Source: Oryzomicrobium sp.
Lineage (GTDB): Bacteria > Pseudomonadota > Gammaproteobacteria > Burkholderiales > Rhodocyclaceae
DNA: 64,000 nt
Assembly (NCBI RefSeq): GCF_021287045.1
Contig: NZ_JAJTBG010000002.1
Span: 124,001-188,000 of the forward strand
Direction: 5' to 3'
Part shown: positions 2 through 21,383 of the stretch, one piece after another
How the letters are laid out: each line of letters opens with the position of its first letter
How positions within the stretch are numbered: the stretch's first letter is position 1
Program-made: the position numbers and the translations under genes
The notes under the pieces: generated by a model
What the model saw: the letters and a program-made list of their open reading frames with translations, nothing else
Database searches by the model: none
What the model was told of the DNA's origin: nothing

Positions 2-2740
2 CGCCGCAACGGCGCGGTGGTGGCCTTCAACCCAGACAAGATCACCGTGGCCCTGACCAAGGCCTTCCTGGCGGTGGAAGGCCACCAGGGCGCCACCTCG
101 GCCCGCGTCCGCGACGTGGTGGGCGAACTCACCGCCACCGTGGTCCAGGCGCTCACCCGGCGCCTGCCCGGCGGCGGCACGGTGCACATCGAGGACATCC
201 AGGACCAGGTGGAACTGGCCCTGATGCGTTCCGGCTCCCACGACGTGGCCCGGGCCTACGTGCTCTACCGGGAGAAACGGGCCGCCGAGCGGGCCGCGGC
301 ACGGGCGGCCCAGGCCACCGACGAGCGCGTCGACGAGCCGGTGTTGCACGTGGTGGACGGCGAGACCCGCCGCCCCCTGGACCGGGCCGCCCTGCTGGCC
401 ACGGTGCAGGAAGCCTGCGCCGACTTGGCCGACGTTTCCGCGGAAACCGTGCTGGAACACGCCCTGCACAACCTCTACGACGGCGTGCCGGTGGTGGCGG
501 TGCGTCAGTCCCTGGTGCTGGCCGCCCGCACCCTGATCGAGCGGGAACCGGCCTACAGCAAGGTTTCCGCCCGGCTGCTGCTCGATTCGATCCGCGTCGA
601 GGTGCTCGGCCAGCCCACCACCCACGGCGCCATGACCGCCGGCTACGCCGAGTATTTCCCCCGGGCCATCCGCCGCGGCATCGCCGCCGAGCTGCTCGAC
701 CCGCGCCTGGCCGAATTCGACCTGGAGGTGCTGGGCCGCGCTCTGGTGGCCGACCGGGACCTGCAGTTCGACTACCTGGGTCTGCAAACCCTCTACGACC
801 GCTACTTCCTGCACGAGGACGAGCAGCGCATCGAGCTGCCGCAAACCTTCTTCATGCGCGTGGCGATGGGCCTGGCCCTGAACGAGATCGACCGGGAAGC
901 CCGGGCCATCGAGTTCTACAACCTGCTCTCGTCCTTCGACTTCATGAGCAGCACGCCGACCCTGTTCAACAGCGGCACCCGCCATTCCCAGCTGTCGTCC
1001 TGCTACCTGACCACCGTCTCCGACGACCTGGAAGGCATCTACCAGTCGGTCAAGGAAAACGCCCTGCTGCAAAAGTACGCCGGCGGCCTGGGCAACGACT
1101 GGACCCCGGTTCGCGCCCTGGGCAGCCGCATCAAGGGCACCAACGGCAAGAGCCAGGGGGTGATCCCCTTCCTCAAGGTGGTCAACGACACCGCCGTGGC
1201 GGTGAACCAGGGCGGCAAGCGCAAGGGGGCGGTGTGCGCCTACCTGGAGAGCTGGCACCTGGACATCGAGGAATTCCTCGAACTGCGCAAGAACACCGGC
1301 GACGAGCGCCGCCGCACCCACGACATGAACACGGCCAACTGGATTCCCGACCTGTTCATGCAGCGGGTGATGAACAACCAGGACTGGACCCTGTTCTCCC
1401 CCAGCGACACGCCCGATCTGCACGACAAGTACGGCAAAGCCTTCGCGGCCGCCTACACCGCCTACGAGGCCAAGGCCGACCGGGGCGAGATCAAGCTGTT
1501 CAAGCGCATTCCCGCCGTGCAGCTGTGGCGCAAGATGCTGACCATGCTGTTCGAGACCGGCCATCCCTGGATCACCTTCAAGGACGCCTGCAACCTGCGC
1601 TCGCCCCAGCAGCACGTGGGCACCGTGCACAGCTCCAACCTGTGCACCGAGATCACCCTCAACACCTCCGAGACCGAGACCGCGGTGTGCAACCTGGGCT
1701 CGGTGAACCTGCCGGCCCACCTGGTGCAGGTGGACGGCCAGTGGACCCTGGACCAGGCCAAGCTCAAGCGCACCATCCGCACCGCCATGCGCCTGCTCGA
1801 CAACGTGGTGGACATCAACTTCTACGCCACCCCCAAGGCGCGCAACGCCAACGTGCGGCACCGCCCCGTCGGTCTGGGCATCATGGGCTTTTCCAACTGC
1901 CTCCAGGAAATGGGCCTGCCCTACGCCTCGGACGAGGCAGTGGTCTTCGCCGACCGCTCCATGGAAGCGGTGTGCTACCACGCCTACTGGGCCTCCACCG
2001 ACCTGGCCGAGGAGCGGGGCCGCTACTCCAGCTTCACCGGCAGCCTGTGGGACAAGGGCATCCTGCCCCTCGACTCCCTGCAACTGCTCGAAGACGCCCG
2101 GGGCGGTTTCGTCGAGGTGGACCGCGGCGCCACCCTGGACTGGGAGGCCCTGCGCCAGCGCATCGCCCAGGTGGGCATGCGCAACTCCAACTGCGTGGCC
2201 ATCGCCCCCACCGCCACCATTTCCAACATCGTCGGCCTCTCGGCCTCGATCGAGCCCGAGTACCAGAACCTCTACGTCAAATCGAACCTGTCCGGCGAAT
2301 TCACCGTGGTGAACGAAGCCCTGGTGCGCGACCTCAAGGCCCAGGGCCTGTGGGACGAGGTGATGGTGGCCGACCTCAAGTACTTCGACGGGTCGCTGGC
2401 CCCCATCGACCGCATCCCGGCCGAGCTCAAGGCCCGCTACGCCACCGCCTTCGAGATCGACCCGGCGTGGCTGATCGAGGCCGCGGCACGGCGCCAGAAG
2501 TGGATCGACCAGGCCCAGTCCCTCAACCTGTACGTGGCCGTGGCCTCGGGCAAGAAGCTCGACGAGATCTACAAGCTGGCCTGGAAGCGCGGCCTGAAGA
2601 CCACCTACTACCTGCGCACCCTGGGCGCCACCGCCATGGAAAAGACCGGGGCGCCGATCGACCGGGCTGCTGTGTCTGCTGCCCCGGCCGAACCCAAGTT
2701 CTGCTCCATCGACAACCCGGATTGCGAGGCCTGCCAATGA
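2..2740 (+). CDS. nrdA: Ribonucleoside-diphosphate reductase class Ia, alpha subunit (5' partial)
   Basis: This is the large subunit of the aerobic ribonucleotide reductase, which reduces NDPs to dNDPs in the cytoplasm with NrdB. The reading frame is open to the window edge: the codons before the first GTG already read RRNGAVVAFNPDKI, a typical ATP-cone opening, so the true start lies upstream. An N-terminal ATP-cone is followed by a second cone-like stretch (about residues 105-190). The active-site cysteines are visible in SSCYLTT, NLCTEI and AVCNLGSVNL. The C-terminal thiol relay ends in CSIDNPDCEACQ, preceded by the radical-transfer tyrosine pair in TYYLRTLG. Its stop overlaps the nrdB start by 4 bp (ATGA), so the two are translationally coupled. 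Family assignment is secure. Confidence 0.97.
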   Translation, partial: RRNGAVVAFNPDKITVALTKAFLAVEGHQGATSARVRDVVGELTATVVQALTRRLPGGGTVHIEDIQDQVELALMRSGSHDVARAYVLYREKRAAERAAARAAQATDERVDEPVLHVVDGETRRPLDRAALLATVQEACADLADVSAETVLEHALHNLYDGVPVVAVRQSLVLAARTLIEREPAYSKVSARLLLDSIRVEVLGQPTTHGAMTAGYAEYFPRAIRRGIAAELLDPRLAEFDLEVLGRALVADRDLQFDYLGLQTLYDRYFLHEDEQRIELPQTFFMRVAMGLALNEIDREARAIEFYNLLSSFDFMSSTPTLFNSGTRHSQLSSCYLTTVSDDLEGIYQSVKENALLQKYAGGLGNDWTPVRALGSRIKGTNGKSQGVIPFLKVVNDTAVAVNQGGKRKGAVCAYLESWHLDIEEFLELRKNTGDERRRTHDMNTANWIPDLFMQRVMNNQDWTLFSPSDTPDLHDKYGKAFAAAYTAYEAKADRGEIKLFKRIPAVQLWRKMLTMLFETGHPWITFKDACNLRSPQQHVGTVHSSNLCTEITLNTSETETAVCNLGSVNLPAHLVQVDGQWTLDQAKLKRTIRTAMRLLDNVVDINFYATPKARNANVRHRPVGLGIMGFSNCLQEMGLPYASDEAVVFADRSMEAVCYHAYWASTDLAEERGRYSSFTGSLWDKGILPLDSLQLLEDARGGFVEVDRGATLDWEALRQRIAQVGMRNSNCVAIAPTATISNIVGLSASIEPEYQNLYVKSNLSGEFTVVNEALVRDLKAQGLWDEVMVADLKYFDGSLAPIDRIPAELKARYATAFEIDPAWLIEAAARRQKWIDQAQSLNLYVAVASGKKLDEIYKLAWKRGLKTTYYLRTLGATAMEKTGAPIDRAAVSAAPAEPKFCSIDNPDCEACQ

Positions 2741-3945
2741 GTGCCTTCCTGCTCAACGACTGGGACGACGGCCCCGCCGTCGCAACGCCCCCTGCCCAGG
2801 CCCCTGCGCCAAACCCCGCGCCCATGGCCGATCTCCAGGCAGGTGCCACGGAAAGCCACGCCCCTGCTGGCGCTCCGGCCATACCGGCCGGAGAACAAGC
2901 ACCGGCGCGGACTTCCGCCCTGCCGCCGACGGGGCTGTCCCTCGCCCCGATCAACCCGGAGGACAAGCGGGTGGTGAACGGCAAGGCCGACATCAACCAG
3001 CTCGCCCCCTTCAAGTACCCCTGGGCCTGGGAGTTCTTCCTCAACGCCAACCGCAACCACTGGACGCCCCTGGAAATTTCCATGGCCCAGGACGTGCACG
3101 ACTACAACCACAAGCTGACCCCGGCCGAGCGCCACGTCTTCGAGAACGTGCTGTCCTACCTCACCACCTCCGACATCCTGGCCATGCGCAACATCGGCCT
3201 GGCGGTGATGGAAAAGATGAGCGCCCCGGAATTGCAGATCTACCAGGCCCGCCAGGTCTACGAGGAGGCCCTGCACACCTGGACCTACCAGCACTGCATC
3301 GAGAGCCTGGGCCTCAACCAGCAGGAGATCTACAACCGTTACCGGGTGGTGCCGCAGATCCACGGCAAGATCGCCCTGGCCAACCGGCGCCTGGAGCGGG
3401 TGATGCGCTCCGACTTCGATCTCACCGACCGGGACAACCTGCACGAATTCGCCCTCTCCTACCTGTTCTTCGCCGGCATCTTCGAAGGCTGCTGGTTCTA
3501 CAACGGCTTCACCCCCATCTTCGCCCTGCAACGCCGGGGCCTGATGAAAGGCACCGCCGAGCAGCTGCAATACATCATGCGCGACGAGGTGCTGCACTGC
3601 GCCTTCGGCATCCGGGTGGTGCGCCAGCTGCTCCAGGAAGAAAACCTGACCCTGGACCCGGCCGCCGTGAAGGCTCTGTGGGAAGAAGCGGAAGCGGCCG
3701 AAGCGGCCTATGCCGGCTACATCCTGCGGGAGCCCATCCTCGGCTACAACGCCGACCTGCACCGGGGTCAGTTTCGCTTCATCGCCAACCGTCGCGCCCG
3801 CCAGCTGGGCCTGGCCGAGCCCTTCCCCGGGGCCGAGAACGTGCTGCCCTGGCTCGACGAACAGGCCAACATGCGCAAGGAGAAGAACTTCTTCGAGACC
3901 CGGGTCACCGAGTACCAGACCGGCGGCGCCCTGGCCTGGGAATGA
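2737..3945 (+). CDS. nrdB: Ribonucleoside-diphosphate reductase class Ia, beta subunit
   Basis: This is the radical-generating diiron subunit, 402 aa. I chose the ATG that overlaps the nrdA stop (ATGA); it gives the N-terminus MSAFLLNDWDDG. The first 70 or so residues are an Ala/Pro-rich extension before the ferritin-like fold starts near NQLAPFKYPW. Ligands follow the E. coli spacing: E177, H180 and the radical tyrosine Y184 lie in EEALHTWTY, and further ligands lie in TTSDILA, FFAGIFEG and DEVLHCAF. The retained tyrosine at E+7 argues for a Tyr-radical class Ia enzyme rather than class Ic. The extension is longer than usual and may be a flexible tether. A strong GC hairpin follows the stop. 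Confidence 0.96.
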   Translation: MSAFLLNDWDDGPAVATPPAQAPAPNPAPMADLQAGATESHAPAGAPAIPAGEQAPARTSALPPTGLSLAPINPEDKRVVNGKADINQLAPFKYPWAWEFFLNANRNHWTPLEISMAQDVHDYNHKLTPAERHVFENVLSYLTTSDILAMRNIGLAVMEKMSAPELQIYQARQVYEEALHTWTYQHCIESLGLNQQEIYNRYRVVPQIHGKIALANRRLERVMRSDFDLTDRDNLHEFALSYLFFAGIFEGCWFYNGFTPIFALQRRGLMKGTAEQLQYIMRDEVLHCAFGIRVVRQLLQEENLTLDPAAVKALWEEAEAAEAAYAGYILREPILGYNADLHRGQFRFIANRRARQLGLAEPFPGAENVLPWLDEQANMRKEKNFFETRVTEYQTGGALAWE

Positions 3946-4107: not shown

Positions 4108-4336
4108 CAAAGGTGTCCGGCGGCAGCAGCCGCCGGGTGAAACGGGAACGAAGTAACGGCCTAACCGCCGCCAAGCTTCGGCTGCCCCCGCAACGGTAAG
4201 TGAGCGCGGATGCGCCACGGCCCCTCCTCCCCGGAAGGGCCAGCCACTGAAACCGCACGTGACCCCGGATTTCCGGGCAAGCGACGGCTTCGGGAAGGCG
4301 ACGCATCAAATCTCACGAGCCCGGAGACCGGCCTTT
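4108..4336 (+). promoter_or_regulatory. Cobalamin (B12) riboswitch, leader of the receptor/CobN-like operon
   Basis: The conserved blocks of the cobalamin aptamer appear in order: GGTGTCCGG opening the P1/P2 region, GGGTGAAACGGGAA at about 4135-4148, TGCCCCCGCAACGGTAAG at 4183-4200 (B12 box region), GCCACTG at 4243-4249, GGGAAGGCGACGC at 4292-4304, and the closing GAGCCCGGAGACCGGCC at about 4317-4333. It sits about 210 bases upstream of the TonB receptor start. By family knowledge it lowers expression when adenosylcobalamin is plentiful. No clear terminator is visible between it and the gene, so control may act on translation. Confidence 0.95.
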
Positions 4337-4546
4337 GACGCCAACGTGCCGACCGCTTTCGCCAGCGGTCGCCAAGGCACGAGCCAAGCACCGGTCGCGG
4401 GGATGCGAACGGAGCCGCGTAGCGAAAAGCCCGGGTCGCCCCTAGCCGCACCATGCCCGTCCTCCGCGCACCGCCATTCCGGCGCGCTGTCTTTTCACCG
4501 CTGCTCCCTCCGCCCGGCCGGTCATCGACTGGAGTCACGAGAGAGC
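4337..4546 (+). other. Long untranslated leader between riboswitch and receptor gene
   Basis: About 210 bases follow the aptamer before the receptor start codon. I see short complementary segments (for example GACCGCTTTCGCCAGCGGTC at 4351-4370) that could form the expression platform, but no convincing terminator T-run and no coding frame with a ribosome binding site. An in-frame open stretch runs through the aptamer, but it is not coding. Confidence 0.5.
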
Positions 4547-6850
4547 ATGCGCAGCACCACCAAGAAAAAGATCGTCGCCACCGCCATTGCCGCCTGTTTC
4601 ACCCAGGCCGGCGCCTTCGGCGAGGAACGGGAACCCGACAACGACAAGCACCTGGCCAACGTGGTGGTCAGCGCAGCGCGGATCGAACAAACCACCCTGG
4701 AAGCCCCCGCAGCCGTCACGGTGATCGATGCCGACAAGCTGGACGCTTCCGGTGCTGTGCGCATCGGCGACGCCCTCACCGCCAAGGTGCCCAGCTTTTA
4801 CATGCGCTTCGGCCTGGGCACCAGTTCCCGCATCAACACCGCCCCCATCGTCACCTTCCGAGGCCTCTCCGACGGCCGTGTGAAGATGATGGTGGACGGC
4901 ATGAGCCTCTCCGACGGTAATGCAGCAGGCCTGACCAGCCTGATGAGCATACCCATGGGCGAAGTGGAACAGATCGAGGTAGTACCCGGCTCGGCCTCCG
5001 CCCTGTACGGCAGCGATGCCATGGGCGGTGTTGTGAATGTGATCACCAAGATCCCTACCAAACGGGAAACGAACGTCAAGATCAGCCATGGCTTTGGCGA
5101 CGGCGAGCGCAACGCTCTAGAAGCCAGCTACCGTAACAAGTGGGATAACGGCATCGCCGCCACCCTGGGCCTCGGCTACGAGGACATGGCCGGTTTCGCT
5201 GGCAGCGACCTGGTAGTGCTGCCGGTAAGCACTACGGGAACCGGTGCCAACGCAGTCCAGGGTGGCCGGCCCACCACCACGGTGGATGGCACGAAGGCCT
5301 ACGTGGTAGGGGATCAGGGCGCCATTCCCTCCCATGCCAATTCCTTGCATGCCAAAGTGTTTTATAGCCTGGATGCCCAATCCCGCTTCTTTGCCGGCTT
5401 CAACCGCAGCGAAAGCAACATCGGCTACCAGCGCTTTAACAACTACCTCACCAAGAACGGCGCCCCCCTCAGCCTGCCGGCCAGCAACGTCTCCATCAAC
5501 GGCGACAAGCTGGGCGACAAGCTGGGCAACATCACGGCATCCAGCTTCTGGAATTCCAGCAACCCCAACTACCGCCAGGAGACCCGCTACTTCGCCGGTT
5601 TCGACGGCAAGCTGGGTGGCGGCTACGACCTCAAGGTCAATGTGGGTTATTTCGACCGGGACTCCTACTACGTGGGTTCGGGTAGCGGCGCCACCTTCGC
5701 CGGCGGCCCGGGCACCCGCACCAGCACCCCCAACACTACCTTGGACGCCTCGGCTCAGCTTGGGTTTGCCGTGGGCAGCAGCCAGTACCTGATCGTCGGC
5801 CTTTCCACCAACCGTGCCAACCTGCACCGCAAGGTCTATCAGCTCTCCAGCTGGCGCGACCCAGGCAGTACCACCGGGGCTTTGAACGAGAAATCCGACG
5901 GAGAAAGCACCACCAATTCCATCTTTCTTCAGGACCAGATTTTTCTCGGCAGCGCCCTCACCCTCTACGTGGGGGGCCGCTACGACCGCTGGAGCACCTC
6001 GGGGAAGATGCAGAGATACGTAGGCACTCCTGTCGGCACTCTGGATGCGCCGGAACGCTCCGATTCCGCATTTTCTCCCAAGGTGGCAGCGGTCTACCGC
6101 CTGACCCCCAATACCAGCCTGCGCAGCTCCCTGGGCAGGGCCTTCCGCGCCCCCTCCAACTACGAGATGTACGCCACACCGAGCGTCAGTACGAGCAACG
6201 GTGTATCTAGACTGTTGGTGGCCGACCCCAACTTGAAACCGGAAACCGCCACCTCCTGGGACCTGGGCATCGAAACAGCCCTGGCCGACCAGGGTTCGGT
6301 CAAGGCCACCTATTACCGCACCCGGCTGCAGGACATGATCTACCGCAAGCTCAGTCCCTATACCGGCCCGCTCCCCAATGTGAGTGTCTTTGCCACCGCA
6401 ACCAATGCGGGCGAAGCCAAAGTGGAAGGCGTGGAACTGGCGGCAGAAATCCCCCTGACTTCCTGGCTGCGGGCGTCGGCCAGCTACACCTGGACCGACA
6501 GCCGCATCACCCGCGATGACAGCAGCACCGGTCTGCAGGACAAGCGCCTGCGCTACGTGCCGAAGAACACCGCCTTCTTCGCCCTGGATGCCCAATGGCA
6601 GAAATGGCGCGCCTACCTTTCCACGGCGTACACCGGGGAGCAGTTCAGCAAGGAAGACAACAGCGACACCGTCAAGAACGTCTATAGCGGCGTCAGCAGG
6701 TACTGGTTGAGCAATCTCAAGGTCAGCTACCAACTCGACCGGAATTTCAAGGCCAGCGTCGGCATCAACAATCTCTTCGACAGAACCTATTACGAGTATT
6801 ACCAGATGCCCGGGCGTAATGCTTACGTCGAACTGAGCGCCTCGTTCTGA
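4547..6850 (+). CDS. TonB-dependent outer-membrane receptor, probably for cobalamin/corrinoid (BtuB-like)
   Basis: This 767-aa outer-membrane receptor has a signal peptide (MRSTTKKKIVATAIAACF, cleaved near AGAFG), a TonB-box-like LANVVVSAAR at about residue 35, and a plug domain with VTFRGLSDGRVKMMVDG and GSASALYGSDAMGGVVNVIT. A 22-strand barrel ends in the aromatic residue of VELSASF. The long in-frame extension upstream overlaps the riboswitch; I chose the ATG behind GGAG/GAGAG because it gives a proper signal peptide. The B12 riboswitch makes corrinoid or cobalt uptake the likely function. At 767 residues it is longer than E. coli BtuB (about 600). An ExbB-like gene follows 20 bp downstream. 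Confidence 0.9.
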   Translation: MRSTTKKKIVATAIAACFTQAGAFGEEREPDNDKHLANVVVSAARIEQTTLEAPAAVTVIDADKLDASGAVRIGDALTAKVPSFYMRFGLGTSSRINTAPIVTFRGLSDGRVKMMVDGMSLSDGNAAGLTSLMSIPMGEVEQIEVVPGSASALYGSDAMGGVVNVITKIPTKRETNVKISHGFGDGERNALEASYRNKWDNGIAATLGLGYEDMAGFAGSDLVVLPVSTTGTGANAVQGGRPTTTVDGTKAYVVGDQGAIPSHANSLHAKVFYSLDAQSRFFAGFNRSESNIGYQRFNNYLTKNGAPLSLPASNVSINGDKLGDKLGNITASSFWNSSNPNYRQETRYFAGFDGKLGGGYDLKVNVGYFDRDSYYVGSGSGATFAGGPGTRTSTPNTTLDASAQLGFAVGSSQYLIVGLSTNRANLHRKVYQLSSWRDPGSTTGALNEKSDGESTTNSIFLQDQIFLGSALTLYVGGRYDRWSTSGKMQRYVGTPVGTLDAPERSDSAFSPKVAAVYRLTPNTSLRSSLGRAFRAPSNYEMYATPSVSTSNGVSRLLVADPNLKPETATSWDLGIETALADQGSVKATYYRTRLQDMIYRKLSPYTGPLPNVSVFATATNAGEAKVEGVELAAEIPLTSWLRASASYTWTDSRITRDDSSTGLQDKRLRYVPKNTAFFALDAQWQKWRAYLSTAYTGEQFSKEDNSDTVKNVYSGVSRYWLSNLKVSYQLDRNFKASVGINNLFDRTYYEYYQMPGRNAYVELSASF

Positions 6851-6870
6851 CCCCCTCCGGAGAACGCCCC

Positions 6871-7479
6871 ATGGAAATCGTCACCCTCATCGAGCACCTG
6901 CTCTACCAGGTCTCCACCGCCCTCTACCTGCCGGTGATCGGCGGCTGTGCCCTGCTTGTCTGCTATGTGCCAGTGCAGCTCGGCATGGCCCTGTTCGAGG
7001 CCTGGCAACGCCAGCGCGGGCGTTTTCCCGACCGGGACGGCTTTTCCCGCCGCCTGGCCCTGCTGCGCGGCCGCCACCGCCATGCGCCGCAGCGCCTGGC
7101 GATCGAGGTGGAGCGCCAGCTCCAGGCAGAGGAGCTGACCCTGGCGCGGCGCCTCGACCGCATCCGCTTCGTCATCAAGGTGGGTCCGGCCCTGGGGTTG
7201 ATGGGCACCCTGATCCCCATGGGCATTTCGCTGGCGGCCCTGGCCGAGGGCAACATCCCGAAGATGGCCGGCAGCATGGTCACCGCCTTCACCGCCACCG
7301 TGGCCGGCCTGGGCGCCGGGGTGCTGGCCTACCTGATCGCCCTGTCCCGGGAACGCTGGGTGCGCGCCGACGTGCGCGAGATGGCCCACGACGCCGAACT
7401 GGCCCTGGCCGACGCCGGCCTGCCCCAGCCCCACCACCTGCAAGCGGAGGCCGACGATGCGGTTGCTGCAGCGGCGTAG
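6871..7479 (+). CDS. MotA/TolQ/ExbB-family proton channel protein
   Basis: This 202-aa inner-membrane protein has one N-terminal membrane segment (LYLPVIGGCALLVCYVPVQL), a cytoplasmic loop rich in basic residues, and two later helices: VGPALGLMGTLIPMGISLAAL and the helix after MVTAFTATVAGLGAGVLAYL. The GLMGTLIPMG and TAFTATVAGLG segments match the pore helices of ExbB/TolQ/MotA. By family knowledge these form proton channels with an ExbD/MotB-type partner. The ATG follows CCGGAGAAC. The gene overlaps the DUF2149 gene by 23 bp, which implies translational coupling. Because it sits between a B12-regulated receptor and a CobN-like protein, it may energise either of them. Confidence 0.88.
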   Translation: MEIVTLIEHLLYQVSTALYLPVIGGCALLVCYVPVQLGMALFEAWQRQRGRFPDRDGFSRRLALLRGRHRHAPQRLAIEVERQLQAEELTLARRLDRIRFVIKVGPALGLMGTLIPMGISLAALAEGNIPKMAGSMVTAFTATVAGLGAGVLAYLIALSRERWVRADVREMAHDAELALADAGLPQPHHLQAEADDAVAAAA

Positions 7480-7798
7480 GCGCTTCTCCCTGGACGGCGA
7501 GGCCCTGGAAGACCCCATCGCCGGGGTCGCCAACCTGTTCGACGCCAGCATCGTCTTCATCGTCTCGATGATGATCGCCCTCTTCATGGCCTACAACATG
7601 ATGGACCTGCTCGACCCCACCTCCGAGGTGACCCTGGTGAAGAAGAACGCCAGCGGCGAGATGGAGATCATCACCAAGAAGGGCAACGAGATCAAAGCCT
7701 CCAAGGTCACCGACGAGAAGCTCTCGGGCCGGGGCGAACGCCTCGGCACCGCCTACAAGCTGCCCGACGGGAGGGTCGTCTATGTTCCGGGCAACTGA
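7457..7798 (+). CDS. DUF2149 protein, ExbD-like partner of the proton channel
   Basis: This 113-aa protein has a short basic N-terminus, one membrane helix at about residues 29-49 (DASIVFIVSMMIALFMAYNM) and a periplasmic tail of about 60 residues ending in LPDGRVVYVPGN. I recognise the family as DUF2149, which commonly accompanies MotA/ExbB-like and CobN-like genes. The Asp at the membrane entry (NLFDASIVFIVSMM) lies where ExbD carries its essential proton-relay Asp before LVLLIIFM, so I infer an ExbD-like role. It overlaps both neighbours: 23 bp with the ExbB-like gene and 17 bp with the CobN-like gene. Confidence 0.82.
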   Translation: MRLLQRRRRFSLDGEALEDPIAGVANLFDASIVFIVSMMIALFMAYNMMDLLDPTSEVTLVKKNASGEMEIITKKGNEIKASKVTDEKLSGRGERLGTAYKLPDGRVVYVPGN

Positions 7799-10700
7799 TC
7801 TGCTCACCACCGCCCTGCGCGGCCTGCTGCTCTGCCTGTGCCTGGGCGGCGCGGCCTGGGCCAAGCCCCTGTCGGTGGTGCTCATCCCCGGCGCCCCGGC
7901 CACCCTGCCGGCGGTGGGAGCGGTCAAGCAGCTGCGCCAGCAGGCCCGGGACCGGGCCGTGCCCGAGGCCGAACGGCGGGCCTTGGCCCAGGTGCGTTTC
8001 CACATCGTTTCCTCCACCCAGCTCTCCGCCGCCGACCTGGAGACCCTGGCCCAGGCCGATGCCGCCCTGGTGTACAACATGGGCCGGGAACTGGCCGCCA
8101 CCATCACCCCGGCGGTGCGCGCCATGGCCGCCCGGGGCGCCCGGGCCTACGCCGTGGGCTCGCCCTTCGAGGAAGGCGAAAAACAGGCCGGCCTGACCCG
8201 GGACGAGACCCTGCGCGCCTACGCCCAGGCCGGCGGCCAGGACAATCTGGTGGCCATGCTGCGCCGCCTGCTGGCCCGGGACTTCAAGCAGCCCCTGGCC
8301 TACCCCGAGGCCCGGCCCTTCCCCGCCACCGGGCTGTGGGAGCCGCGCGGCAACCGGCTCTACGCCAACTTCGACGACTACGCCCGGGATTACCTGGCCC
8401 GCCGCCCCGACGCCGCCGGCCGGGTATGGGTGGGGGTGCTGTTCAACCGGGTCACCGCTCAGGCCGGCAGCTCGCCGCTGCTCGAGGCCATCGTCGGCCG
8501 CCTGGAAGCCCGGGGCTTCAACGTAGTGCCGGCCTTCGGCTTTCCCTCCGAGATTCCGGCGGAACGCTATTTCCTCGACGCCCGGGGCCAATCCCGGGTG
8601 GCCGCCGTGGTGGGCCTGGCCCTGAAGATGGGCAACGTCCCGGAAAAGACCATCCCGGTGATGCGGCGCCTGGACGTACCGGTGGTCAATGCCATGACCC
8701 TGTACAACCAGACCCGGGAAGAATGGGAAGCCTCGCCCCTGGGCCTGTCCCTGTCGGAGCGGGCCTGGCAGGTGGCCGGCGCCGAATTCGCCGGTGCCGT
8801 GGCTCCCACCGTGGTGGCCTCCAAGGAACGGGTGGTGGACCCGGACAGCGGCCTCGCCTACATGGTCGAGACGCCCATCCCCGAGCGCGTCGAGCGCCTG
8901 GCGGACCGCATCAAGAAGTGGGTGGCGCTGCGCTACGAACTGCCGGCCAACAAGAAGGTGGCGGTGATCTACTACAACTACCCGCCGGGCAAGGAGAACA
9001 TCGGCGCCTCCTATCTCAACGTGCTGCCCCGCTCCCTGTGGCAGATTCTCGGCCGCCTGGAGCAGGCCGGCTACGACGCCCAGGGCCGCCCGGCCACGGA
9101 GGCAGCCCTGTTCGACGCCCTGCGCGAGCACGGCACCAACATCGGCAACTGGGCCCCCGGCGCCCTGGAAAAAATGGTGCGCGGCGGCCACGCCATGCTG
9201 CTGCCGGTGAGCGACTACCGGAAGTGGTTCGACCGCCAGCCGGAGGCGCTGCGCAGCGCCATGGTCAAGGCCTGGGGCGAGCCGGAGAACTCCAAGGTGA
9301 TGCTGTGGAAGGACGGCAGGGGCAAGCCTCACTTCGTCTTCCCCGCCCAGCGCTACGGCAATCTGGTGTTTGCGCCCCAGCCTTCCCGGGGCTGGGAGGG
9401 CGATATCAAGAAGATGTACCACGACGTGGCCCTGCCGCCCCACCATCAATACCTGGCCTTCTACCTGTGGCTGCAAAAGGGCTACCAGGCCCATGCCATG
9501 GTGCACGTGGGCACCCACGCTACCCACGAGTGGCTGTCCGGCAAGGAGGTGGGTTTCACTGCCGCCGACCCGGGGGAGGCCATGGTGGGCGACGTGCCCC
9601 AGCTCTACCCCTACATCGTGGACGACATCGGCGAGGCTCTGCAGGCCAAGCGGCGCGGCATGGCCACCATCGTCTCCCACATGACGCCGCCCTTCGACAA
9701 GGCCAGCCTCAACCTGGAACTGGTCAAGCTGCGGGGCCTCATCGACGACTACGTGGTGGCAGCCCAAAAAAGCGAATCAGCCGCGGCCGCCGCCCTCGGC
9801 GAGATCAACGCCCAGGGCCGCAAGCTGGGCGTACTCAAGGACATCGGCAAAACAGCCCTGGCCGACGGCGAAGACGTGGAGGAGCTGGAGCATTACCTGA
9901 AGGAGGTGAGCGAACACCAGGCCCCCTACGGCCTGCACACCTTCGGCGTCGCCCCGCCCAAGGACATGCAGCGCAGCACCGCCGAGGCCATCCTGGCCCT
10001 GGCCGGCAAGCTGGCCCCGGTCGAACACCAACGCCGCCTGGAAGCCCTGATGGCCAATATGGAAGCCAGCGGCAAGGCCGAGCTGGACGCCCTGGAAGCG
10101 GGGCTGGCCGGCCGCTACGTGGCTGCCGGCCCGGGCAACGACCCGATCCGCAATCCGGACTCCCTGCCCACCGGGCGCAACCTCTACGGCTTCGACCCCT
10201 CCCGCCTGCCCACTCCGGGCACCTGGGAACAGGGCCGCAGCCTGGCCGAGAAGTTCGTCGCCGACTACCGGCAGCGCCACGGCCAGTATCCGGACCGGGT
10301 GGTGTTCAACCTGTGGAGCACCGAGGCCATGCGCCATGAAGGCGTCACCGAGGCGGAGATTCTCGCCCTGCTGGGGGTGAAACCCCAATGGGACGAGCGG
10401 GGCCGGGTCAGCGGCCTGGAGATCATCTCCCGCCGCGACCTGGGCCGCCCCCGGGTGGACGTCACCGTGGTGCCCTCGGGGCTCTACCGGGACGCCCTGC
10501 CGACCCTGATGCAGCTGGTGGACGAGGCCGTCTCCAAGGTGAAGGACCTGGAGGAGAACGACAACCCGATCCGCGCCAACGTGCAGAAGACCCGCCAGGC
10601 CCTGGAGCAGCGGGGCATCGCCCCGGCCGAGGCGGCGCGCCTGGCGACGGTGCGGGTGTTCACCGAACCTTCCGGCGCCTACGGCACCGGGGTGGACAAC

Positions 10701-11822
10701 GTGATCCAGGCCGCCAACACCTGGGATAAGGAAAGCCAGGTGGCCGACGTGTACTTCAACCGGGTCGGCCATCTTTTCGGCCAAGGCTACTGGGGCGACC
10801 GCCCCGGCGGCGCGGCCCTGGCGGTGGACGTCTTCAAGATGGCCCTGAAGGATGCCAAGGCGGCCATCCACTCCCGTTCCTCCAACCTCTACGGCACCCT
10901 GGATAACGACGACGTGTTCCAGTACCTGGGCGCCACATCCATGGCCATCCGCCAGGTGAACGGCAAGTCGCCGGAAACCCTCATCCTCAACCTGGCCGAC
11001 GGCAAGGGCGGCAAGCACGAGACCCTGGACAAGTTCATGGGCCGGGAGATGCGCACCCGCTACACCAACCCGGAATGGGTCAAGGCCATGCTCAACGAAG
11101 GCTACGCCGGCGCCCGCTTCGTCATGAAGGTGACCGAGCACCTGTGGGGCTGGCAGGTGACCGTGCCCGAAGCGGTGGACGGTGCCAAGTGGCAGGAGAT
11201 GTACGAGACCTACGTGGCCGACCGCAACCGGCTGGGCGTGAAGGACAAGTTCCGCGAGGCCAAGAACCTGCGCGCCTACCAGGCGGTGGTGGACAAGATG
11301 CTGGTGGCCATCAACAAGGGCTACTGGCAGGCCGACCCCCAGGTGAAGGCCCATCTGGAGCAGGTGAACCGGGAAGTGATCGCCGAAGCCGGCGTGGCCT
11401 GCAACGCCGCCTCGTGCAGCAGCGCCGAGGTCACCGCCCTGGCCCAGGCCCAGGACGCCCGGGACATGGCCGACGCCCGCGCCCTGCCGGCGCCGGGAGC
11501 AGGTGCCCGGGCCCCCGGCAGCGGCAGCGCCGCGCCTGCCGGCGGCCGAACCGCCACGGCAACCACGCCGGCCACGGCGACCACGGCGACCAACGCCCAG
11601 CCTGCCGCCGTCCGGCCCCAGGCGGCGGACCGCGCCAGCCAGGCCACTCCGCCGGCCCAGCCCCCGGCACCGGCCAGCGAAGCGGTGGAGGGCTACGCGA
11701 TGAAGGAAGAAAAGCGCACCGCCGCCCCCGTGCCGCCCGAGGCCGCCTCCTGGGCCCTCGCCGGCCTTGGCGTGCTGGTGGCCCTGGGCTTTGCCTGGGG
11801 TGCCCGGCGGCGCCGCGCCTGA
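7782..11822 (+). CDS. Exported, membrane-anchored CobN-like (cobaltochelatase large-subunit family) protein
   Basis: This 1346-aa protein is of the CobN/Mg-chelatase H family. The ATG at 7782, behind GGGAGG and inside the DUF2149 gene, gives a classic signal peptide (FRATDLLTTALRGLLLCL, then GGAAWA before KPLSVVLIPG). The CobN core includes LPRSLWQILGRLEQAGYDA, HVGTHATHEWLSGKE (residues 575-589), YPYIVDDIGEALQAKRRG and SHMTPPF. A low-complexity Ala/Pro/Thr linker (about residues 1225-1310) leads to a C-terminal membrane helix (SWALAGLGVLVALGFAWG) and an RRRRA tail. The bulk is therefore predicted in the periplasm, unlike the cytoplasmic chelatase, and no CobS/CobT genes are nearby. A periplasmic role in corrinoid or metal handling is inference. 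Confidence 0.9.
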   Translation: MFRATDLLTTALRGLLLCLCLGGAAWAKPLSVVLIPGAPATLPAVGAVKQLRQQARDRAVPEAERRALAQVRFHIVSSTQLSAADLETLAQADAALVYNMGRELAATITPAVRAMAARGARAYAVGSPFEEGEKQAGLTRDETLRAYAQAGGQDNLVAMLRRLLARDFKQPLAYPEARPFPATGLWEPRGNRLYANFDDYARDYLARRPDAAGRVWVGVLFNRVTAQAGSSPLLEAIVGRLEARGFNVVPAFGFPSEIPAERYFLDARGQSRVAAVVGLALKMGNVPEKTIPVMRRLDVPVVNAMTLYNQTREEWEASPLGLSLSERAWQVAGAEFAGAVAPTVVASKERVVDPDSGLAYMVETPIPERVERLADRIKKWVALRYELPANKKVAVIYYNYPPGKENIGASYLNVLPRSLWQILGRLEQAGYDAQGRPATEAALFDALREHGTNIGNWAPGALEKMVRGGHAMLLPVSDYRKWFDRQPEALRSAMVKAWGEPENSKVMLWKDGRGKPHFVFPAQRYGNLVFAPQPSRGWEGDIKKMYHDVALPPHHQYLAFYLWLQKGYQAHAMVHVGTHATHEWLSGKEVGFTAADPGEAMVGDVPQLYPYIVDDIGEALQAKRRGMATIVSHMTPPFDKASLNLELVKLRGLIDDYVVAAQKSESAAAAALGEINAQGRKLGVLKDIGKTALADGEDVEELEHYLKEVSEHQAPYGLHTFGVAPPKDMQRSTAEAILALAGKLAPVEHQRRLEALMANMEASGKAELDALEAGLAGRYVAAGPGNDPIRNPDSLPTGRNLYGFDPSRLPTPGTWEQGRSLAEKFVADYRQRHGQYPDRVVFNLWSTEAMRHEGVTEAEILALLGVKPQWDERGRVSGLEIISRRDLGRPRVDVTVVPSGLYRDALPTLMQLVDEAVSKVKDLEENDNPIRANVQKTRQALEQRGIAPAEAARLATVRVFTEPSGAYGTGVDNVIQAANTWDKESQVADVYFNRVGHLFGQGYWGDRPGGAALAVDVFKMALKDAKAAIHSRSSNLYGTLDNDDVFQYLGATSMAIRQVNGKSPETLILNLADGKGGKHETLDKFMGREMRTRYTNPEWVKAMLNEGYAGARFVMKVTEHLWGWQVTVPEAVDGAKWQEMYETYVADRNRLGVKDKFREAKNLRAYQAVVDKMLVAINKGYWQADPQVKAHLEQVNREVIAEAGVACNAASCSSAEVTALAQAQDARDMADARALPAPGAGARAPGSGSAAPAGGRTATATTPATATTATNAQPAAVRPQAADRASQATPPAQPPAPASEAVEGYAMKEEKRTAAPVPPEAASWALAGLGVLVALGFAWGARRRRA

Positions 11823-11835
11823 ACCGTTCCCTCGT

Positions 11836-11859
11836 GGGGGGTACCTGCCCCCCTTTTTT
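11836..11859 (+). terminator. Intrinsic terminator 1 after the CobN-like gene
   Basis: A 6-bp G:C stem (GGGGGG with CCCCCC) and a 6-nt loop are followed directly by six T residues, 13 bases after the CobN-like stop. It closes the B12-regulated operon. Confidence 0.85.
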
Positions 11860-11915: not shown

Positions 11916-13097
11916 ATGCGCATCCGCCGCCTGTGCTCCCTGCTGCACCGCTACACCGGCCTGGCCCTGGCCGCTTTGGTGGGCCTCGCCGCCGTCACCG
12001 GCAGCCTTCTCGTCTTCACCCCGGAACTGGACCGGCTGCTCAATCCGGAGCTGCTCACCATCGCCCCACCTCGGGCGGATGCCGTGCCCCGGCCCCTGGC
12101 CGAGCTGCTCGACACTGCCCGGCGCAACCATCCCGCCCACCAAGCGGTGTCCATTACCCCGCCGGCCCGCCCGGGCGATGCCACGGCGGTATGGCTGAAA
12201 CAACCCCGGGCCGGCGAGCCGGGGCGCTTCGACTGGCTCCAGGCCCTGTTCGACCCCTACAGCGGCCGCGAGCTGGGCGCCCGGGAACGCAGCCGCATCG
12301 ACTTCAGCCGGACCGGCCTGCTGCACCTCGTCAACCACCTGCACGGCCAGTTGCTGCTCGGCGAGTTCGGCCTGTGGCTGATGGCCGGCGCCGCCCTGGC
12401 CTGGAGCCTCACCTCCCTGGTCGGCCTTTACCTGTGGTGGCCGGGCCGGCGCAAGCTGCGCCTAGCCCTGACGGTCAAGCGCAATGCCGGAACGGGGCGC
12501 CTGCTGTTCGACCTGCACCGGGCCGCCGGCTTCTACACCCTGCCCGTGCTGCTCGTCCTGGCCGTCACTGGCATGTACATGGCCCGGCCCGCCACCGTGA
12601 AGCCGGTGGTGGGCTGGTTCGCCCCCCTGGACGCGGACAAGCCGCCCCGGGTCGAGCCACGCTCCGGCCAGGCACCCCTGACCCCGGACGAGGCGGTGGC
12701 CGCCGCCCAGGCCGCCCTGCCCCAGGGCGCCCTCAAGCGCATCGGCCTGCCCCAATCGCCCCGGGACGCCTACGCCGTCTCGTTCCTGCTGCCTGGCGAG
12801 GTGCGCCGCCCCAGCGGCGGCCGCAGCACGGTGTGGGTCGATCCCTGGCGCGGCGACGCGCTGCGGGTCAAGGACGCCACCCGCCTGCCCGCCGGCGAGG
12901 CCTATCTGGCCTGGCAGACACCCCTGCACACCGGCAGCGCTTTCGGCCTGCCCGGCCGCCTGCTGGTGGCCGCCGCCGGCCCCCTGGCCTTGCTGCTGGC
13001 CGCCACCGGGGTGCTGATGTGGCTGCGCCGGGGCAAAAAGCCCAAAGCAGCCGGCCAGGCGGTGCGTCCGCTGGAAACCGCCGCCGTCAAGCCTTGA
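11916..13097 (+). CDS. PepSY-associated membrane protein (PiuB-type, iron-regulated family)
   Basis: This 393-aa inner-membrane protein has an N-terminal helix (LHRYTGLALAALVGLAAVTG), a periplasmic PepSY-like region, paired helices at about residues 140-175 (LLGEFGLWLMAGAALAWSLT), another near residue 205 (FYTLPVLLVLAVTGMYMA) and a C-terminal helix (LLVAAAGPLALLLAATGVLM). Conserved His residues in LHRYTG, LVNHLHG and DLHRAAG fit the PepSY_TM family, some members of which are linked to siderophore-iron reduction. No strong ribosome binding site is visible. Two tandem terminators separate it from the CobN-like gene, so it is probably transcribed alone. Its substrate is not evident. Confidence 0.82.
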   Translation: MRIRRLCSLLHRYTGLALAALVGLAAVTGSLLVFTPELDRLLNPELLTIAPPRADAVPRPLAELLDTARRNHPAHQAVSITPPARPGDATAVWLKQPRAGEPGRFDWLQALFDPYSGRELGARERSRIDFSRTGLLHLVNHLHGQLLLGEFGLWLMAGAALAWSLTSLVGLYLWWPGRRKLRLALTVKRNAGTGRLLFDLHRAAGFYTLPVLLVLAVTGMYMARPATVKPVVGWFAPLDADKPPRVEPRSGQAPLTPDEAVAAAQAALPQGALKRIGLPQSPRDAYAVSFLLPGEVRRPSGGRSTVWVDPWRGDALRVKDATRLPAGEAYLAWQTPLHTGSAFGLPGRLLVAAAGPLALLLAATGVLMWLRRGKKPKAAGQAVRPLETAAVKP

Positions 13098-20068: not shown

Positions 20069-20953
20069 TCAGCCCGGGTGCGTGCCGCGGAACGGCTGGG
20101 GCACCGGCGTGGGACGTCCATCGTAGCCCACCGCCACCAGCACGAAGCGGCCCCGGGTGCACAGGCGGCGCCGGCCGCTCAACAGGTCTTCGCCGTACAT
20201 CAGCACATCCACGGTCATCGAAGTGTTGCCCACCGCCACCACCCGGGCGGCGAGATCGACGATCTCGCCTTCCAGCACCGGGGCGTGGAAGTCGATGCGC
20301 TCGGAAGCGGCCATCACCACCGGCAGCCGGGCGTAACGCGTGGCGGCCACCATGGCGGCCTTGCCCAGGCGGGCCAGGGCCTCGCCGCCGAACAAGGTAC
20401 CGTGATGGTTGGTATGGCCGGGGAAGACGATCTCCACAAGGTGGGTGACCGGCCCCAGGCCCGCCAGGACCACCGGGTCCGGGGCTGCCGGCGGGGTAGC
20501 GCTGCCCTCGCCCACCGCCACCAGCACGAAGCGGGCGGTGGCGCAGGTTTCCCGTGTCCCCCGGGTCATGTCCTCGGCGGCCAGCACCACTTCCACCTCC
20601 ACCGAGCGGTTGCCGCGGCGCGCCACCCTGCCCGACAGCTCCACCAGCCGCCCCTGGGGGATCGGGCGGAGGAAGTCGATGGCCCCGGTGCTGGCGGTGA
20701 CCATGGGGCGCCGGGTTTCCCGGGTGGCGACGAGAAAGGCCAGCTTGTCCATCATCGCCAGGGCGGCGCCGCCGAAGAGGGTGCCGTGGTGGTTGGCCTG
20801 GTCGGGAAAGACCACGTCCACCAGCACCGTGGGCGACGGCGCCGGCAGGGTGTCAGCGGCGGGAACGGAAGAATCGGGGAAATCGTGGGAATCGAGGGGT
20901 CGAGCGGTGGCCGTCCCCGCGACGGCGGCCTGCTCCAGTGCTTCCATGCGCAT
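20069..20953 (-). CDS. Acyl-CoA thioesterase with two hotdog domains
   Basis: This 294-aa protein carries two hotdog thioesterase domains. Each begins with a near-identical segment: VDVVFPDQANHHGTLFGG then AALAMMDKLAF, and VEIVFPGHTNHHGTLFGG then EALARLGKAAM. The NHHGTLFGG motif with its catalytic Asn/His/Gly is typical of YciA/ACOT-type acyl-CoA hydrolases. The start is uncertain. I prefer the middle of three ATGs, 6 bp after AGGAG, but the frame stays open with coding-like third positions to an ATG at 21103 (344 aa). A cobalamin riboswitch lies directly upstream on the same strand, which is unexpected for this family. Confidence 0.85.
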   Translation of the reverse strand: MRMEALEQAAVAGTATARPLDSHDFPDSSVPAADTLPAPSPTVLVDVVFPDQANHHGTLFGGAALAMMDKLAFLVATRETRRPMVTASTGAIDFLRPIPQGRLVELSGRVARRGNRSVEVEVVLAAEDMTRGTRETCATARFVLVAVGEGSATPPAAPDPVVLAGLGPVTHLVEIVFPGHTNHHGTLFGGEALARLGKAAMVAATRYARLPVVMAASERIDFHAPVLEGEIVDLAARVVAVGNTSMTVDVLMYGEDLLSGRRRLCTRGRFVLVAVGYDGRPTPVPQPFRGTHPG

Positions 20954-21149
20954 GCGCATCTCCTGAAGGGTGCGGAGCGGGCGTGGCCGGAACGACGGGA
21001 GCGAAAGCGGCAGGCCACCCGGACGGGCGGCCATGACGGACCGGCGCAGCCGCAGGGAGCGGACGCCGGGCCAGGACAGCGGTTGCAGATGCGCGCATTC
21101 CATTCCTCCGGGGACACCCCGCCCCACTTGGATTGATGAAAGAACGCCG

Positions 21150-21383
21150 CGGCAGGTCTCCTGGCTTGCGGGTCGCCGTATCGCGCCAGCCTTCCCGGCA
21201 TGACATCGCCAGTGGCAAAGAATGGGCGCGACACTCGCCGCTTACAGTTGCGGGGGCAGCTCCGGACTGGGATTCGGGGAGGTTTCCCCCAATCCGCACC
21301 GGATTCCCTTTTCATCCCCGGGACGGGGAACCGAAGCCCGGGCAGGGTAGCGCGCTGCGGTGCAGCACGTCAAACGGGCACCA
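21150..21383 (-). promoter_or_regulatory. Second cobalamin (B12) riboswitch, minus strand
   Basis: Read on the minus strand, the conserved blocks occur in order: GGTGCCCG at 21382, GATGAAAAGGGAA at about 21314-21302, CTGCCCCCGCAACTGTAAG at about 21261-21243, GCCACTGGCGATGTCATG (about 21217-21200), CCGGGAAGGC (about 21198-21189) and AGCCAGGAGACCTGCC (about 21166-21151). It is a closer match to consensus than the aptamer at 4108. The first downstream gene on this strand is the thioesterase, about 200 bases away. No cobalamin biosynthesis or transport gene lies on this side. Confidence 0.95.

Follow-up and report, generated by a model that had tools for sequence, protein, structure and literature searches.

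What would a relative of the cobaltochelatase subunit CobN do outside the cytoplasm? The question is raised by an operon in a 64,000-nucleotide stretch of DNA from Oryzomicrobium sp. (contig NZ_JAJTBG010000002.1, positions 124,001 to 188,000; hereafter the window), in which a cobalamin riboswitch precedes genes for a TonB-dependent receptor, an ExbB-like channel protein, a DUF2149 protein and a large CobN homologue. An initial annotation had read this operon as a periplasmic machine, driven by the proton motive force, that acts on cobalt or corrinoids after their uptake through the outer membrane. On balance, the operon probably encodes a corrinoid- or cobalt-directed periplasmic class-I chelatase module of the HmuS/BtuS kind, which would be induced by B12 starvation. 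Papers are cited here and below by their PubMed Central (PMC) identifiers.

Architecture of the module and its putatively exported chelatase

The aptamer of the cobalamin riboswitch (RF00174, 4094 to 4350; cmscan 67.7 bits, E value 1.5e-14, gathering score 31.5) ends 196 bases before the ATG (4547) of the receptor gene (767 residues, 4547 to 6850), which was assigned from NCBIfam and solved-structure comparisons. It is followed, on the same forward strand, by genes for an ExbB/TolQ/MotA-like inner-membrane channel of HmuU type (202 residues, 6871 to 7479; PF01618, 53 bits), a DUF2149 protein of HmuV type (113 residues, 7457 to 7798; PF09919, 111 bits) and an exported CobN-like class-I chelatase of HmuS/BtuS type (1346 residues, 7782 to 11822; PF02514, 1012 bits). 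Rfam and Pfam matches confirmed all five elements named in the initial annotation, and the overlap that it described for the last three genes amounts to 23 bases between the ExbB-like and DUF2149 genes and 17 bases between the DUF2149 and CobN-like genes. The module is the R, U, V and S gene set of the Bacteroidota hmu operon placed behind a cobalamin riboswitch, and the analogy to hmu drawn at the outset held, with the same four gene families present. The hmuYRSTUV operons also combine a TonB receptor, an exported and anchored CobN-like protein with the catalytic histidine, a MotA/TolQ/ExbB protein and a DUF2149 protein (PMC10434189, PMC12583661); the window module differs in having a B12 riboswitch instead of iron control, an aspartate in place of His1209 and the gene order R-U-V-S. 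The four genes leave no gaps for another gene such as hmuY or hmuT, although HmuY and HmuT profiles were not searched.

The CobN-like protein begins with MFRATDLLTTALRGLLLCLCLGGAAWA, followed by KP, and a signal peptide of residues 1 to 27 with an AWA cleavage site (7782 to 7862) is evident by eye and by hydropathy. At its C terminus, a 20-residue hydrophobic stretch (residues 1322 to 1341, 11745 to 11804) is followed by RRRR, and both features were found by a crude hydropathy test in 68 of 78 family members, the window protein included. Consequently, the body of the protein, which includes a long Pro/Ala/Thr-rich linker, should reside in the periplasm, and the export signals claimed for it earlier are supported by both inspections.

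The protein matches HmuS (9d26) at an E value of 5e-143 and CobN (7c6o) at 7e-122. In a HMMER alignment to 9d26, His579 (9516 to 9518) falls on His538, the catalytic residue of HmuS (PMC12583661), and across CobN-like proteins it is invariant in all 117 rows. Position 1044 (10911 to 10913), where HmuS has His1209, is aspartate as in CobN in 111 of the 117 rows and in all 49 riboswitch-type rows, and histidine in the other six (L013, L151, L152, L173, L178 and L179). The counterpart of the HmuS haem ligand Met79 is Met100, a position at which 27 of the 49 riboswitch-type rows and 4 of the 44 rows without a riboswitch have methionine, with kinship not removed; the HmuS site-1 ligand His254 is replaced by Met283.

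Identity with authentic CobN was rejected, given the export signals and the lack of a genome match for CobT. The CobNST cobaltochelatase and ChlHID share the class-I chelatase body (PF02514) with the window protein but are cytoplasmic and driven by adenosine triphosphate (ATP), whereas here the curated NCBIfam cut-offs for CobN were missed (864.9 of 1248 and 603.4 of 822 bits). Two paralogues encoded in the same genome (L013 and L014) exceed the cut-off of the CobN model NF004644, which is therefore not specific for cytoplasmic CobN. As to the absence of CobS and CobT that had been stated, the part concerning CobT was borne out, with no match to TIGR01651 in the 98.7% complete genome, and CobS was not searched.

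Recurrence behind riboswitches and corrinoid-related company

To place the module among its relatives, a genome collection at species level was searched with three CobN-like proteins, and the best 80 of 570 confirmed relatives, a sample leaning to close kin, were analyzed together with 40 DUF2149 loci, from which two of 22 non-own DUF2149 matches (G634 and G663, under the cut-off) were left out. The riboswitch model (R1) was built from 16 sequences, partly from such loci, and one Rfam match was added to its matches. To count as ahead of the gene, a riboswitch had to share its strand and to lie either within the cluster before cobN or no more than 4.5 kb upstream; gene starts in the relatives are approximate, open reading frames having been called by a simple base-composition rule.

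Among the best 80 of 570, a riboswitch lies ahead of the CobN-like gene in 41, none was found in 23 and the sequence ends upstream in 16; in L068, which is counted among the 41, riboswitch and module are separated by a large gene grouped with a reductase (nrdA by eye). The corresponding numbers for the 40 DUF2149 loci are 6, 20 and 12, with no module in two; in three of the 20 (L182, L183 and L184) a riboswitch occurs at another place in the sequence analyzed. Of 74 matches to the model, which was partly trained on such loci, 52 fall within 1 kb upstream of CobN-like modules on the same strand, with 1.9 expected. Rfam confirmed the riboswitch at 32 of 43 loci overall: ahead of the gene at 13 of 22 loci chosen before the model search, and at 19 of 21 chosen for having matches, the other two (L182 and L183) carrying it elsewhere. 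The 13 include all eight anammox and planctomycete-type loci of one batch given to Rfam, six of them with two riboswitches in close tandem. The survey of co-occurrence thus supports recurrence of riboswitch-led, exported CobN-like modules in five phyla by record title (Proteobacteria; Desulfobacterales and kin; Planctomycetota; Nitrospira; Verrucomicrobia with Methylacidiphilum), and riboswitch presence changes 11 times on the CobN-like tree. In Duganella, Massilia and kin (L098, L100–L106, L109, L110, L120 and L123) the riboswitch directly precedes exbB-DUF2149-cobN; at many of these loci, genes for a MerR-type protein and for a heavy-metal P-type ATPase lie upstream, and that of an unclassified receptor follows downstream.

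The neighbours of these modules point in the same direction as the riboswitch. CbiZ is an enzyme of corrinoid remodelling, and a CbiZ domain was found beside the CobN-like gene in 13 of the 14 long members tested of one neighbour cluster, the remaining one (L097) showing a BtuF-like domain only. The CbiZ domain is fused to a BtuF-like domain in L113, L114, L126, L129, L134, L140 and L142 and, in relatives of the window module, to CN_hydrolase or DUF4019 (L067, L068, L070, L071, L082 and L127). Nine of these proteins have a plain signal peptide by eye (L067, L082, L113, L114, L126, L127, L134, L140 and L142); starts are unsettled in L068, L070 and L071, and the signal peptide of L129 was not judged. 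Four of the loci fall outside the riboswitch-type score, with none found in L067 and the sequence ending upstream in L126, L129 and L134. Exported CbiZ therefore stands beside the CobN-like gene in at least two clades, and the fusions apparently serve periplasmic corrinoid remodelling, as judged from their domains and signals.

In locus L164, a riboswitch is followed in a row by genes for a BtuB-like receptor (476 bits), the CobN-like, ExbB-like and DUF2149 proteins, and BtuF-, BtuC-, BtuD-, CobB-, CobA- and CobQ-type proteins, in a 97% complete genome without CbiC or an over-cut-off CbiL. In L070, a CbiM gene with a riboswitch ahead of it adjoins the module; L113 has a neighbouring gene for CbiK, and L138 one of CobQ type. 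CbiM and CbiQ genes adjoin L136, where the model found no riboswitch. With the distribution of the riboswitch, these CbiZ, BtuF/C/D-type, CbiM, CbiK and CobQ-type neighbours support the link to B12 or cobalt first proposed for the window. DUF4430 occurs in anammox loci; in L131 (9369–9800), tandem cobalamin riboswitches are followed by a gene for a small DUF4430 protein, flanked by those of a BtuB-like receptor and of the CobN-like protein.

The corrin-pathway marker CbiC was found in 30 of 44 riboswitch-type genomes and in 9 of 42 others (Fisher p 1.5e-5, ignoring kinship). These searches left out L013, L014 and L167 (3 of 45 without a riboswitch), the window and L166 (2 of 48 with one), and also L110; L135 and L141 share one genome, and the Azonexus genome G666 stands in both sets.

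Possible sister modules for other metals and the B12 genes of the same genome

The genome (3.9 Mb) holds three PF02514 genes, all with ExbB-like and DUF2149 neighbours, of which only the window copy has a riboswitch; its closest match among the loci fetched is the module of Azospira oryzae (L066), with a CobN-like protein 83% identical. The receptor of the second module (L014) scores 468 and 435 bits on the curated haem/hemoglobin models, above their cut-offs of 324 and 317, and its cluster includes canonical TonB, ExbB and ExbD genes, with a sigma factor gene adjoining. A Fur-like site upstream of L014 has five mismatches, a level also reached in 34 of 1452 random segments. The receptor of the third module (L013) matched no NCBIfam model at 1e-40, its CobN-like protein keeps histidine at the position of HmuS His1209, and no Zur-type box was found there by the consensus word.

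Boxes for Zur, Fur and NikR were sought with consensus words, and most loci were at random level. A FastTree tree of 117 CobN-like rows, in which long branches were flagged, provisionally places the window clade (10 rows; 11 with L072) inside a larger clade of 29 rows, some of whose other modules are linked to NikR, HupE or a NikR box. NikR genes lie near the modules of L078, L119 and L087 (by Pfam) and L075 (by cluster), and HupE genes near those of L075, L078 and L093; the riboswitch-type locus L143 also has a NikR-cluster gene. A NikR-like box with one mismatch was found at L099, a closer match than any of 1452 random segments gave, and one with two mismatches at L073 (11 of 1452 random segments at two, so that about one such match is expected over about 120 loci); a two-mismatch match in the Bacteroidota locus L111 was taken for chance, and the loci with NikR genes had no match to the NikR word within three mismatches. 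Upstream of L179 stands a perfect Zur-type palindrome, whereas not one of 2420 random segments came within a single mismatch of the word. The Fur box of L153 has two mismatches, a score equalled or bettered by 3 of 1452 random segments; the best Fur-word match near the window module has eight mismatches.

These data suggest a nickel version of the module (L075, L078, L093, L119, L087, L099 and L073). Zur controls PA1922–1925 of P. aeruginosa (PMC4542158, PMC8531726), and iron starvation induces the hmu genes, those for the MotA/TolQ/ExbB and DUF2149 proteins included (PMC10434189). By the same logic with which NikR or a B12 riboswitch was used to infer the metal of nickel/cobalt transporters (PMC7689651), the exported CobN-like proteins would form a family with iron, zinc, nickel and cobalt/corrinoid members.

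At least eight riboswitches were found in the genome, 150 of 341 first-look candidates having been scored. One precedes cbiM in an anaerobic cobalamin cluster with cbiN, cbiE/T, cbiL, cbiG, cbiH and CbiX genes in the same region; another precedes a BtuB-like receptor gene with BtuC-, BtuD- and CobB-type genes; others stand ahead of two further TonB receptor genes and of a nitroreductase-family gene (bluB by eye). A riboswitch just outside the window (G000:C13:123422-123648) precedes nrdA and nrdB (window 17–3945), and in Azospira (L066) this stretch likewise has two riboswitches. The second riboswitch of the window (21134–21350, reverse strand) is stronger, at 130 bits, and stands ahead of a gene for a two-domain 4HBT thioesterase (20069–21127, reverse strand), an unusual gene under B12 control; speculatively, the thioesterase may relieve a build-up of acyl-coenzyme A when methylmalonyl-CoA mutase lacks B12.

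Downstream of the module, a terminator-like hairpin with a T run (11836 to 11853) begins 13 bases past the stop codon of the CobN-like gene; such sites number 13 in the 9.5-kb region, against 6.7 expected from shuffles. Beyond it, 93 bases downstream of the CobN-like gene, begins a gene, passed over in the initial annotation, for a PepSY_TM inner-membrane protein on the same strand (393 residues, 11916 to 13097; PF03929, 213.6 bits) that matches 7abw over its full length at an E value of 4.6e-29. The entry is listed as a PepSY domain-containing protein, and we take it to be the siderophore reductase FoxB. The protein is possibly a periplasmic metal reductase and would be a natural electron source for the chelatase, although its membership of the operon is uncertain because of the strong hairpin that separates the two genes.

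Energy source, reaction and rival explanations

In the mechanism that we favour for the window module, B12 shortage would induce an envelope system whose TonB receptor would carry a cobalt-containing ligand across the outer membrane, either a tetrapyrrole (most likely a corrinoid) or a cobalt complex of another kind. In the periplasm, the CobN-like chelatase, held by its C-terminal helix, would alter the metal state of the imported ligand. The ExbB-like and DUF2149 proteins would act as a proton-channel motor and supply membrane energy to the chelatase, replacing the cytoplasmic AAA+ motors of CobST and ChlID, and the products would pass through the riboswitch-controlled inner-membrane systems of the same genome (CbiMN-type and BtuCD-type).

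No ATP is expected in the periplasm. The ExbB-like protein carries the MotA/TolQ/ExbB channel domain, and a profile of 16 of its relatives detects ExbB (5sv0) at an E value of 0.0013; DUF2149 has a single membrane helix with an invariant Asp29 in a 22-row alignment, and its small beta domain is of low confidence in the predicted structure (predicted template modelling score 0.29), too poor for a fold search. ExbB-like and CobN-like genes accompany DUF2149 at 38 of the 40 DUF2149 loci, and among 121 modules ExbB-like genes occur in 107 and DUF2149 genes in 102, while L112, L121 and L134 show neither despite at least 2.5 kb known on both sides. Canonical ExbB and ExbD genes additionally lie near 10 of the 121 modules, and so the pair is not simply the energiser of the receptor. 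DUF2149 and PF02514 also both occur, not necessarily side by side, in a control genome, that of Methanosarcina acetivorans, an archaeon without an outer membrane. Given the tight gene linkage, the extra canonical sets and the archaeal occurrence, we favour the pair as a motor for the chelatase rather than for the receptor, in line with the cytoplasmic class-I chelatases, whose AAA+ motors are thought to pass on a twist to the chelatase (PMC7689651). The converse idea, that the ExbB-like and DUF2149 proteins and the anchored CobN-like protein together stand in for TonB, receiving the cargo and energising no receptor but this one, draws on the shared operon and on the long linker of an anchored periplasmic protein, but the same canonical sets and the same archaeon make it improbable.

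Several observations weigh against the corrinoid- or cobalt-directed chelatase or against parts of it. The receptor scores higher on the haem model TIGR01785 (218.5 bits, cut-off 316.85) than on the BtuB model TIGR01779 (158.8 bits, cut-off 599.7), whereas among solved structures it ranks with Cir (E value 1.1e-28) and BtuB (7e-18) ahead of the haem receptor PhuR (8e-11); it appears ambiguous, to be placed with neither BtuB nor the haem receptors. The genome has a better BtuB candidate elsewhere, on C22 (478 against 159 bits), itself under the 599.7 cut-off. Of the initial claim that the module is for B12, the corrinoid/cobalt direction was supported, but for these two reasons it may instead be for cobalt. 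Thirteen of the 14 CbiC-less riboswitch-type genomes (13 of the 44) also lack an over-cut-off CbiL, among them Duganella, Massilia and Azonexus isolates, three genomes at least 97% complete and the window-module relatives L068 and L127; they should be unable to make B12 from free cobalt, and supplying cobalt for its de novo synthesis is therefore not the sole role of the module. Cobalt in corrins is, moreover, very inert. As to the pair, a profile comparison of DUF2149 with ExbD gave a non-significant hhalign probability of 1.3, with 12 columns around the membrane aspartate aligned, so that proof by sequence of DUF2149 as ExbD failed; of the ExbB/ExbD-like pair first described, the ExbB half stood and the likeness to ExbD did not extend beyond topology. 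The archaeal argument is weakened by a report that around BtuS of Methanosarcina barkeri the whole operon is lacking (PMC10846266). HmuS is active in vitro with reduced nicotinamide adenine dinucleotide (NADH), without partners or ATP, so that possibly no motor is needed, and by itself it performs one or two turnovers with NADH (PMC12583661). Finally, a B. fragilis btuS1 btuS2 double mutant, although defective in growth on haem, still released protoporphyrin, at about twice the level of its parent, and the authors doubted that BtuS is a dechelatase (PMC6460266).

Other explanations can be weighed on the same evidence. The module may serve to harvest cobalt, as related engines would harvest iron (hmu/Fur), zinc (Zur) and nickel (NikR); cobalt would be stripped from an imported complex, and the freed Co2+ would enter the cell through CbiMNQO to supply CbiX and the de novo synthesis of B12. 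This is a serious possibility, if short of a probable one, and accords with the nesting of the window clade among nickel-linked modules, with the Zur-type palindrome at L179 and published Zur control of PA1922–1925, with the window genome, which has CbiM, CbiN and CbiX behind a riboswitch and in which CbiZ was not found, and with HmuS being a dechelatase (PMC12583661). It is harder to reconcile with B12-type modules in genomes lacking the corrin pathway, with CbiZ in six close relatives, which indicates a corrin and not a metal, and with NikR-gene loci that show no NikR box by the word used. More doubtful is a salvage route in which cobalt would be inserted into, or exchanged in, metal-free or wrongly metallated corrinoids in the periplasm before their import by BtuFCD and processing by CobB, CobA and CobQ. 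CobN, CobB, CobA and CobQ catalyze consecutive steps of the aerobic pathway, and the L164 operon joins genes of all four types; Asp1044 and the CbiZ neighbours also fit. Against it, supplies of metal-free corrinoids and, selectively, of periplasmic cobalt are unproven, and the characterised exported relatives act on haem iron.

A plain haem-iron HmuS brought under a B12 riboswitch would account for the NCBIfam ranking of the receptor and for Met100. We judged it unlikely, with little probability left to it, since L014 already fills this role by the score of its receptor; Cir and BtuB outrank PhuR among solved structures, HmuS His254 and His1209 are not conserved, and neither HmuY nor HmuT is among the four genes, nor is a close Fur-word match nearby. 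Within the preferred reading, that of a corrinoid- or cobalt-directed chelatase, the direction of the reaction in the window genome is a matter of leaning. Cobalt release, a tentative choice, stands slightly ahead because of HmuS, of the sister modules linked to NikR or Zur and of the impaired growth of the btuS1 btuS2 mutant on haem (PMC6460266). Insertion of cobalt into, or its exchange in, imported corrinoids is rather less likely; in its favour are Asp1044 and the presence of CobB-, CobA- and CobQ-type neighbours in a genome that lacks corrin synthesis. Handling of the ligand without a change of metal is about equally unlikely.

To our knowledge, no enzyme has been described that removes cobalt from, or inserts it into, a corrinoid outside the cytoplasm. 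Parts of the picture are already known, namely cobalamin riboswitches before Bacteroides hmu-like operons (PMC10100974) and CobN without CobST in Geobacter (PMC3403914), whereas the listings and excerpts obtained from the open-licence PMC literature gave no description of a spread over several phyla, of CbiZ partners with export signals or of sister modules linked to nickel. BtuS1 and BtuS2 of Bacteroides, the subject of a proposal of Rodionov (2003, as cited in PMC6460266), are likewise exported and CobN-like, with a riboswitch before some hmu-like operons (PMC10100974, PMC6460266), and BtuS1 is probably the riboswitch-led copy, as inferred from PMC10100974. The window module differs from them in its Azospira-like proteobacterial host, its haem-type and unclassified paralogues and the CbiZ partners of its relatives. 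PA1922–PA1925 of P. aeruginosa, a zinc-starvation operon, comprises a TonB receptor, a CobN-like, an ExbD-annotated and a hypothetical gene (PMC4542158, PMC8531726), but has a zinc repressor. The cobN-exbB-exbD-tonB genes on pSZ77 of Geobacter lovleyi place CobN without CobST near receptors and cobalamin genes, with no riboswitch mentioned in that text (PMC3403914); both likenesses are drawn from the published descriptions. For Chlorobaculum, cobalt insertion into imported cobalamin has been a matter of speculation (quoted in PMC8620254).

More broadly, though this is unlikely to hold, a single envelope engine with an ExbB-type motor in place of an AAA+ ATPase may have been respecialised for iron, zinc, nickel and cobalt, with up to three versions per genome, the B12 version working with exported CbiZ and amidase-type partners to dismantle or re-metallate corrinoids in the periplasm, as if B12 biosynthesis were partly reversed. 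If the proposed role of the window module is correct, it would explain the old puzzle of CobN genes in B12 regulons without CobS or CobT, add an extra step to the corrinoid scavenging of many environmental bacteria, anammox bacteria included, and mean that a chelatase dependent on ATP elsewhere can instead be powered by a proton motor.

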